The notes below the pieces were generated by a model. It did no database searches. It was not told where the DNA came from and was given only the letters and a program-made list of their open reading frames with translations. 64,000 bases of DNA, taken from Sphingobacterium thalpophilum. Its GTDB lineage: Bacteria; Bacteroidota; Bacteroidia; Sphingobacteriales; Sphingobacteriaceae. Below, piece by piece: positions 35,495 to 38,134 of the stretch. Positions within the stretch are counted from its first letter, which is position 1, and every line of letters begins with the position of its first letter. The stretch is taken from positions 496,001 through 560,000 of the forward strand of contig CAMBMM010000001.1 in the NCBI GenBank assembly GCA_945868825.1. Direction: 5' to 3'. The position numbers were made by a program, and so were the translations under genes.

Positions 35495-36064
35495 TTATTT
35501 TTTTCCACCCTTAGGAGAAACAGTTAAAAACATCCGTTTACCTTCTAATTTGGGCAACTGCTCTACTTTTCCTACATCTTCTAATGCCTGAGCAAACTTA
35601 AGGAGTAAAATCTCTCCTTTTTCTTTGTAAACAATGGCTCTTCCTTTAAAATGAACGTAAGCTCTTACTTTTTCACCACTTTCTAAAAAGTTAATGGCAT
35701 GTTTCAACTTAAATTGGAAATCATGGTCGCTGGTATTAGGCCCGAAACGGATCTCTTTAATCACCGTTTGCTTGGCATTCGCCTTAATTTCCTTCATTTT
35801 TTTCTTCTGTTCGTAAAGAAACTTGTTGTAATCAACAACTTTACAAACCGGAGGAACTGCATTTGGAGAAATCTCCACTAAATCTAATTCTAACTCTTCA
35901 GCAATGGCCAAAGCATCTTTAAGAGCATAAACTCCTACTTCTACATTATCACCCACCAATCGTACCTCGACGGCTCTGATAAGTTCGTTAATGTAGTGTT
36001 CCGCTTCTTTCTTCTTAAACGGTGGACGTGGTCCTCTGTTAAATCCTGGTCTTCCTAAAGCCAA
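35495..36064 (-). CDS. infC: Translation initiation factor IF-3, TTG start
   Basis: A 189-residue factor that keeps 30S free of 50S and checks the start codon. The N-domain contains [20 protein letters not shown], the linker is lysine-rich ([15 protein letters not shown]) and the C-domain contains [19 protein letters not shown]. The start is TTG at 36064-36062: the codon directly upstream in frame is TAA, so no ATG upstream is possible. A non-AUG start is classical for infC (AUU in E. coli), where IF-3 represses its own translation. It begins seven bases after thrS. Confidence 0.96.
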
Positions 36065-36071
36065 TTATGTA

Positions 36072-37997
36072 TTAAATTTTAGTTTCGTTAATTAACTGAT
36101 TTTCAAACTCTTGTATGCTCATACTTCCTAAATCTCCTTCACCGTGCTTACGAACTGAAACCATTCCTTCGCTCATTTCTTTCTCTCCAATAATCAACAT
36201 ATATGGGATTTTTTTAATCTCGGCATCGCGAATTTTGCGGCCGATTTTCTCATCTCTCATGTCGATTAGCCCGCGAATATCGGAATTATTTAAGGATTCT
36301 AAAAGTTTTTTCGCATATTCTTCATATTTCTCTGAGATAGGAAGTACGATAAATTGTTCGGGGGTTAACCACAATGGGAAGTTGCCAGCACAATGCTCAA
36401 TCAACAAGGCTATGAATCGTTCTAGGGAACCGAAAGGTGCCCGGTGAATCATTACTGGCCGGTGCTTGGCGTTATCGCTGCCAGTATATTCTAATTCGAA
36501 ACGTTCGGGCAGATTATAATCTACCTGGATGGTTCCTAATTGCCATTTACGTCCTAGTGCATCGCGAACCATAAAATCGAGTTTAGGGCCATAAAATGCA
36601 GCTTCGCCATATTCTACCACAGTTGTCAATCCTTTTTCGTCGGCAGCTTCTATAATTGCCGCCTCGGCTAAAGCCCAATTGGCGTCAGATCCGATGTATT
36701 TGGATTTGTTATTGGGATCGCGAAGGGAAACTTGTGCGGTATAATCTTGGAAATCTAAAGCAGCCAATACGTACAAAACCAAGTCTATTACCTTTTTAAA
36801 TTCTTCTTTTACCTGATCGGGTCGGCAAAATAAGTGGGCATCATCTTGCGTAAAACCTCTTACCCGGGTTAATCCGTGTAATTCGCCACTTTGTTCGTAG
36901 CGGTAAACAGTTCCAAATTCGGCAAAACGTACCGGTAAATCTTTGTAAGAACGTGGCTTGGTTTTATACAATTCGCAATGGTGCGGGCAGTTCATCGGTT
37001 TTAAAAAGAACTCCTCTCCTTCTTGCGGGGTTTTAATTGGCTGAAATGAATCGGCACCATATTTATCGTAATGACCAGAAGTTATATACAAATTTTTATG
37101 CCCGATATGCGGAGTAACCACCTGCTCATAGCCCATTTTTTGTTGTGCCTTTTGCAGAAAACTAATTAATTTTTCTCTCAGTGCGGTTCCTTTGGGTAAC
37201 CACATAGGTAAACCCATCCCTACTTTTTCGGAGAAAGCAAATAATTCTAATTCTTTACCCAATTTACGATGATCACGTTTTTTGGCTTCTTCTACCATTT
37301 CCAAGTACTCACTCAATTCGCTTTGTTTGGGAAAAGTAACACCATAAATACGGGTTAACTGCTTACGGGTTTCATCGCCACGCCAATAGGCACCAGCAAC
37401 GTTCATTAATTTTACTGCTTTAACAAAACCGGTATTGGGTATGTGTGGCCCACGACACAAATCGGTAAAATTACCCTGTGTATAAAAGGTAATAGTACCG
37501 TCGGCCAGGTCTTTAATTAAATCGAGTTTATATTCATCACCCTTTTCGATGAAGTATTTCACAGCCTCGGCTTTACTAATATCTTTACGCTCATAATCAG
37601 ATTTATTTCGAGCCAATTCGAGTATTTTATCTTCTATTTCCTTGAAATTATCGGACGAAAATTCGCGGTCACTAAAATCTACATCGTAATAAAAACCAGT
37701 TTCTATAGCTGGGCCAATACCTAGTTTTACACCCGGATAAAGGGCTTCTAGTGCTTCGGCCATCAAGTGTGCCGAGGAGTGCCAAAAGGTACTCTTACCT
37801 TCGGTATCGTTCCAAGTTAATAAACGTAAGGTTGCATCGGTTACAATGGCACGTGAAGCATCCCAAATTTCTCCGTTTACTACAGCTGCTAATACGTTTC
37901 GGGCTAAACCTTCAGAGATGGAAAGGGCTATTTGGTGAGCAGTGGTTCCTGATTCGTAGGCACGAACCGAACCGTCGGGAAGGGTAATGTTGATCAT
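36072..37997 (-). CDS. thrS: Threonyl-tRNA synthetase
   Basis: A 641-residue class II enzyme that charges tRNA-Thr. Domains in order: TGS (1-60, [17 protein letters not shown]), editing domain with [11 protein letters not shown] near 75 and [10 protein letters not shown] near 182, catalytic core with [12 protein letters not shown] near 335 (zinc Cys), motif 2 [21 protein letters not shown]-type sequence near 360, and the C-terminal anticodon domain from [13 protein letters not shown]. It heads thrS-infC-rpmI-rplT. Its leader holds a hairpin that resembles the tRNA-Thr anticodon arm, so autoregulation as in E. coli is possible. Confidence 0.97.
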
Positions 37998-38036
37998 CTA
38001 CAATATGATTTAACGTTCGAAAAAAAGGTTATTAAA

Positions 38037-38055
38037 CATCACCTACTATGTGATG
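38037..38055 (-). promoter_or_regulatory. thrS leader hairpin resembling the tRNA-Thr anticodon arm
   Basis: On the minus strand CATCAC (38055-38050), a 7-base loop ATAGTAG (38049-38043) and GTGATG (38042-38037). Numbered as an anticodon loop (32-38), it has U33, anticodon AGU (a Thr anticodon, with G35 and U36) and A37. It lies 40-58 bases before the thrS ATG. The functional reading is inference. Confidence 0.4.
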
Positions 38056-38060
38056 GTCCA

Positions 38061-38068
38061 CAAAAATA
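38061..38068 (-). promoter_or_regulatory. -7 promoter element TATTTTTG for the thrS operon
   Basis: An exact TAnnTTTG on the minus strand, lying between the terminator of the upstream gene (38099-38118) and the leader hairpin. It predicts a start near 38054, at the base of the hairpin. No -33 TTG is seen at the right distance. Confidence 0.42.
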
Positions 38069-38098: not shown

Positions 38099-38118
38099 AG
38101 CCCCGAGTTAGCGGGGCT
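38099..38118 (-). terminator. Terminator of the GLPGLI gene
   Basis: AGCCCCG (38099-38105) and CGGGGCT (38112-38118) form a 7-bp stem with a 6-base loop. On the minus strand a T-rich tail TTTATTTAT follows. It lies 17 bases after the stop at 38135. Confidence 0.72.
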
Positions 38119-38134
38119 ATGCAAAAGAACTGTA

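Follow-up and report, generated by a model that had tools for sequence, protein, structure and literature searches.

Two putative anticodon-arm mimics in the thrS leader of Sphingobacteriaceae, a probable translational operator for threonyl-tRNA synthetase

The thrS locus

The window, i.e., the whole 64,000-nucleotide stretch of Sphingobacterium thalpophilum DNA that was analyzed (GenBank assembly GCA_945868825.1, contig CAMBMM010000001.1, positions 496,001 to 560,000), carries thrS on its minus strand (Table 1), and the 641-aa product of this gene matches solved structures of threonyl-tRNA synthetase (ThrRS). On the same strand, thrS has its own leader, located downstream of the terminator-like hairpin of the preceding gene. 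Bacteroidota are a phylum without Shine-Dalgarno initiation, and the leader sequence of the window contains no Shine-Dalgarno-like sequence before thrS. Downstream of thrS lies infC (IF3), which apparently begins with TTG at window position 36064 (minus strand); a start context of the TTGGC-TTAGG type is retained among the family relatives checked. This non-AUG start recalls infC of E. coli, which starts with AUU and whose product, IF3, controls its own translation. The source genome, at 1.66 Mb and 99% completeness, is small for Sphingobacteriaceae, most members of which have 3 to 6 Mb.

The probable promoter of thrS was recognized by the -7 box consensus TAnnTTTG, which lies at position -12 to -5 (PMC9723704). 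Given the location of the box, the transcript is predicted to start one base ahead of the first of two hairpins, H1, and consequently the RNA should begin with H1 and contain both hairpins. A TAnnTTTG box no more than 26 nt upstream of H1 was present in 52 of 72 family leaders, compared to 2.1 in shuffles. H1 and the second hairpin, H2, sit between this conserved promoter box and the thrS AUG.

H1 consists of 6 Watson-Crick pairs and a 7-base loop and is found 58 to 40 bases 5' of the thrS ATG. In H2, the 3' arm begins with the thrS start codon itself. When the loops are read as anticodon loops, the triplets of both hairpins (AGU in H1 and UGU in H2) are threonine anticodons. An earlier note on this DNA had reported a hairpin with a 6-bp stem and a seven-base loop 40-58 bases upstream of thrS, and the sequence is exactly as it described; its reading of the loop as U33, AGU, and A37 agrees with the positions we assign, and the terminator between which and thrS it had placed the hairpin does lie upstream. 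The earlier note was correct about H1 and had missed H2, the promoter box, and the single-hairpin forms found outside the family. The tRNA-Thr genes found in the scanned loci of the source genome have the anticodons UGU and GGU; AGU, the triplet of H1 in the window, is the anticodon of no tRNA gene in these loci, indicating that H1 is not simply a copied tRNA fragment.

Table 1. Features of the thrS gene and its leader in the window
Feature	Position	Strand	Basis and details
Terminator-like hairpin of the upstream gene	38099..38119	minus	Sequence AGCCCCG...CGGGGCTTTATTT; separates the upstream gene from the thrS leader
Probable -7 promoter box, TATTTTTG	38061..38068	minus	-7 consensus TAnnTTTG; start of the transcript predicted at about 38056, the foot of H1
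H1, first putative anticodon-arm mimic, CATCAC[ATAGTAG]GTGATG	38037..38055	minus	Sequence, family leaders, and stem covariation; CATCAC 38055-38050, loop ATAGTAG 38049-38043, GTGATG 38042-38037
H1 anticodon-like triplet, AGU (N34, G35, U36)	38045..38047	minus	38047-38045 as read; U33 at 38048, A37 at 38044
Linker between H1 and H2	38010..38036	minus	Leader sequence; A- and U-rich, 27 bases
H2, second putative anticodon-arm mimic, ATCAT[ATTGTAG]ATGAT	37993..38009	minus	5-bp stem, start codon in 3' arm; family leaders; ATCAT 38009-38005, loop ATTGTAG 38004-37998, ATGAT 37997-37993
H2 anticodon-like triplet, UGU	38000..38002	minus	U33 at 38003, A37 at 37999; UGU in 93/99 and CGU in 6/99 copies
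thrS (threonyl-tRNA synthetase, 641 aa)	36072..37997	minus	Start ATG 37997-37995, inside H2; residues R590, E607, and R616 conserved

Conservation of the leader hairpins

We gathered thrS leaders from genomes of the same family and from named relatives (Pedobacter, Mucilaginibacter, Sphingobacterium, and Olivibacter) and counted as a hairpin any stem of 5 bp or longer that closed a loop of 7 or 8 nt matching U-N-G-U-R. Among 95 non-redundant Sphingobacteriaceae leaders, such a hairpin was present in the H1 zone of 67 and in the H2 zone of 83, while dinucleotide shuffles gave means of 1.2 (maximum 4) and 0.5 (maximum 2), respectively. When G-U was replaced by any of the other 15 dinucleotides, the corresponding loops were seen in no more than 5 of the 95 leaders. 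In a sample of 88 family leaders, we observed H1 in 57, H2 in 77, and either in 78. The two hairpins occur together in the window and in most family leaders; a few genera (g10, for example) lack them. U makes up 44% of the linkers and A 39%, and 47 of 68 linkers include at least 5 consecutive U; the distance from the H1 loop to the H2 loop is 43 to 55 nt in most relatives. In one genome (G011, C1:3550521-3552424), thrS itself seems to be broken into two reading frames that overlap (residues 1-184 and 174-635), which appears to be a frameshift or an assembly error.

In the relatives, the triplet of H1 varies only among the four threonine anticodons, all of which are present (UGU 52, AGU 15, CGU 8, and GGU 4 among the counted copies). 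Position 34 is free in H1, with U33, G35, U36, and a purine at position 37 being held; only two of the counted copies of H1 and H2 have a base other than A at position 37. The threonine identity elements of tRNA are G35 and U36 (PMC4267643), and a free position 34 next to fixed positions 35 and 36 is as expected if ThrRS reads these two bases.

A synthetase-gene leader with a threonine-specific triplet might also be a T-box or another leader that reads tRNA or works by attenuation. However, read as codons the loops specify Cys, Ser, Arg, and Gly, and it is as anticodons that all of them specify Thr. Furthermore, no terminator helix was seen after H1, no leader peptide was seen, and Rfam returned no match at the gathering score in the window and none that was relevant at E values up to 10 in the leader. 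Because the triplets make sense only as anticodons and the Rfam match is absent, we rejected a T-box and consider its chances, and those of an attenuation leader, negligible.

The f4 genomes contain a TATATTGTATGTAT stretch upstream of thrS that resembles a UGU hairpin. This candidate was rejected because the stretch is upstream of the promoter box and so would be absent from the transcript. Four f4 genomes (L119, L120, L124, and L132) have a conserved TATATATTGTATGT-type stretch about -65 to -42 from thrS, upstream of its promoter box; it appears to be a DNA element and not an RNA hairpin. In another f4 genome, L129, a 7-bp hairpin, GATTTTC[ACTTGTAG]GAAAATC, lies at -42 to -21 from thrS, just past a promoter-like box, and is a lone putative UGU mimic in f4, possibly of independent origin.

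Covariation and folding of the stems

The H1 stems are diverse, with 29 distinct arm pairs. A full MAFFT alignment (A4) misaligns the H1 copies with 8-nt loops and thereby understates covariation; loop-size-specific alignments were used instead. For the 38 sequences of H1 with a seven-base loop, covariation was 0.39, compared to a shuffle mean of 0.14, a value reached by 0 of 500 shuffles; changes on both sides were seen at all 6 pairs, and 97.4% of the cells were paired. For the 23 sequences with an eight-base loop, covariation was 1.24, compared to 0.28 in shuffles (0/500), and for 15 hairpins from outside the family it was 1.25, compared to 0.30 (0/500). In all three alignments, the signal collapsed when the pairing was slid by 1 to 3 columns. 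The earlier note had proposed that relatives be searched for compensatory changes in the stem and for loops that keep U33 and N-G-U. Such changes are strongly evident in each of the three alignments, and the triplets of the relatives do stay threonine anticodons. These outcomes support the inference drawn in the earlier note that thrS may be controlled in the way known from E. coli.

The H2 stem behaves differently: in the alignment used, 5 of its 6 pairs never vary, the outer pair being the exception, and no covariation is seen. The stem is nearly invariant because the AUG-AUU coding sequence fixes one of its arms. Consequently, pairing in H2 is inferred from how strictly its non-coding 5' arm, ATCAT, is conserved, and not from covariation. 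The rare exceptions would still pair (L078, with a GTG start and a U-G pair, and L077, with G-U).

These results bear on whether H1 and H2 might instead constitute a DNA operator, i.e., palindromes near the promoter to which a transcription regulator of thrS binds. H1, lying near the -7 box, is an almost perfect inverted repeat, and the arms ATCAC/GTGAT are common to many family copies, as such an operator would have it. However, the alignments of eight-base-loop and of outside-family hairpins show compensated changes in the arms and a conserved central loop, which is the opposite of the pattern for a protein that reads the arms; in addition, H2 overlaps the start codon. Since it is the loop and not the arms that stays constant, we rejected a DNA operator as very unlikely.

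When considered alone, H2 is weak, with a median of -2.1 kcal/mol and a pairing probability of 0.28, as would be anticipated if protein has to hold the helix shut; H1 is firmer (-5.0 kcal/mol and 0.93). The leader of the window, folded by itself, prefers other pairings, with a probability near zero for the two hairpins. Because H1 and H2 do not come out as its minimum fold, single-sequence folding was not used as evidence, and one hairpin taken alone would be unconvincing.

The arms of H1 and H2 are also complementary to each other (4/5 and 5/5 pairs) in 42 of 68 leaders, including that of the window (37993-38055). Together with the near-zero probability of the two hairpins when the window leader is folded alone, this could suggest an RNA switch with two states, with or without ThrRS, in which the arms of H1 and H2 either pair with each other or form separate hairpins. 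Yet in leaders with differing H1 stems (e.g., AAATCC/GGATTT and ACACTC/GAGTGT), cross-pairing is gone and both hairpins remain, indicating that cross-pairing is not essential. Moreover, either state would leave the AUG paired, and cross-pairing offers no obvious ON state. We therefore regard a two-state switch as improbable, although cross-pairing may matter in those leaders where it is possible.

Specificity to thrS and forms outside the family

A covariance model comprising H1, the linker, and H2 (R1) was searched over 61 whole genomes of the family. It gave 43 matches, one per genome in 43 of the 61 genomes; many of the matched leaders are also in the alignment of the model, so that this number is not independent and the absence of matches elsewhere is the informative part. 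Every one of the 43 finishes at the start codon of thrS, and the 61 genomes yielded no match anywhere else. The proS and hisS leaders of the genus showed no conserved hairpin of the anticodon type.

Outside Sphingobacteriaceae, 17 of the 56 named relatives carry just one UGU-loop hairpin ahead of thrS. It lies 20 to 55 nt upstream of thrS with the AUG outside the hairpin, and its stems are unrelated (CCGATG/CATCGG, GCGCTTGC/GCAAGCGC, and GTGGCTTAC/GTGAGCCGC are examples). These 17 are mostly Cytophagales (Algoriphagus, Echinicola, Belliella, Cyclobacterium, a Roseivirga MAG, a Spirosoma MAG, and others), together with a Taibaiella MAG. In a separate set covering the rest of the phylum, 2 of 60 leaders qualified. 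An H2 with the start codon inside looks like a feature of Sphingobacteriaceae.

Since the stems are short and H2 has one arm dictated by AUG-AUU coding, one could argue for coincidence, or for a general constraint on translation starts, in place of a ThrRS site. This is contradicted by the shuffle and loop-dinucleotide controls, by the covariation, and by the lack of any other match to the model in the 61 genomes, and we give it almost no credence. The comparison with relatives turns what could have been a coincidence into a strongly supported candidate regulatory element, and the sequences argue strongly for two anticodon mimics that serve thrS alone.

Proposed mechanism

We propose that the thrS leader is very probably a translational operator through which ThrRS would repress its own translation by way of anticodon-arm mimics. 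From the sequence, we infer the binding of ThrRS, the binding of a dimer at two sites, the blocking of the start codon, and a response to the level of tRNA. The RNA, starting just before H1, would fold into H1 and H2 with loops of the form U33-N34-G35-U36-A37, which would be presented to the anticodon-binding domain of ThrRS. Whenever free ThrRS exceeds tRNA-Thr, a dimer would bind H1 and H2, probably with one hairpin per subunit, and would clamp H2 shut, such that the AUG, as part of one half of the H2 stem, would be barred from the ribosome. When uncharged tRNA-Thr is plentiful, it would occupy ThrRS, and the weak H2 would open and allow translation of thrS.

As to its origin and distribution, we favor, with some reserve, a ThrRS operator that is specific to the phylum and possibly evolved independently, with the AUG built into the mimic and with one-hairpin forms outside the family, mostly in Cytophagales. 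If true, this would be a translational switch free of a Shine-Dalgarno sequence, in which the AUG is buried under the enzyme. A synthetase can probably control its message by anticodon mimicry without a Shine-Dalgarno site to mask, and the thrS leader would provide a concrete case for studying translation control in Bacteroidota. Likewise, leaders with one or two hairpins and with the AUG outside or inside would form a natural series for asking how such operators arise.

Comparison with known systems

T-box leaders, which belong to synthetase genes of Gram-positive bacteria, present a codon and bind tRNA. Like them, the leader described here would use an amino-acid-specific triplet to control a synthetase gene; unlike them, it presents an anticodon and should bind the synthetase.

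Eukaryotic synthetases, in yeast and elsewhere (HisRS and ThrRS-RPC10 among the examples), bind to anticodon mimics located either in the mRNA that encodes them or in other mRNAs (PMC6542539, PMC9956033). As far as these accounts go, they share with our proposal an anticodon-arm mimic that is bound by a synthetase for translation control; they differ in leader architecture, and the portions consulted mention no start codon inside a mimic. In the literature that we found, E. coli is the one organism for which mimicry by a thrS operator is described, with other forms of mimicry described in eukaryotes. We found none on a Bacteroidota thrS leader; it is possible that the leader was listed earlier among the 224 candidate structured RNAs of 2017.

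The E. coli thrS operator is a textbook example of molecular mimicry. In that system, two hairpins resembling the anticodon loop of tRNA-Thr (domains II and IV) are bound by ThrRS, which thereby prevents binding of the 30S subunit, and changing a loop to the Met anticodon passes control to MetRS (PMC11088916, PMC9976931, PMC3858243). As a positive control, we ran the same finder on E. coli thrS. It returned GTGATCT[TTCGTGT]GGGTCAC at about -34 (loop CGU) and ATTTAGC[ATTTGTTG]GCTAGAT at about -97 (loop UGU), a pair that matches the published two-hairpin ThrRS operator (PMC11088916) and that, by position, we read as domains II and IV. With the same script, one of these E. coli hairpins has a 7-nt loop and the other an 8-nt loop.

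Several features of the E. coli operator recur here: a location in the 5' UTR of thrS, two hairpins with threonine-anticodon-like loops containing G35 and U36, and a first mimic that, as its covariation here shows, is kept as an RNA helix. The U-rich linkers of the family leaders are like the U-rich, single-stranded ribosome-binding region that lies between the E. coli hairpins, upstream of the proximal one (PMC3858243). The contact residues of the ThrRS anticodon domain are conserved as well: R590, E607, and R616 of the window ThrRS align with Arg583, Glu600, and Arg609, the E. coli residues reported to bind the mimic (PMC6430810). The two systems belong to different phyla and share no Rfam family and no demonstrated sequence relation, and the loops are about 43 to 55 nt apart here versus 63 in E. 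coli. Finally, the ribosome site of E. coli is single-stranded and outside the mimics, whereas here there is no Shine-Dalgarno sequence and the AUG is part of the second hairpin. Because of this difference, we consider the thrS leader, which would function much as the E. coli operator does, to be a variant of the E. coli-type operator rather than a member of that type.
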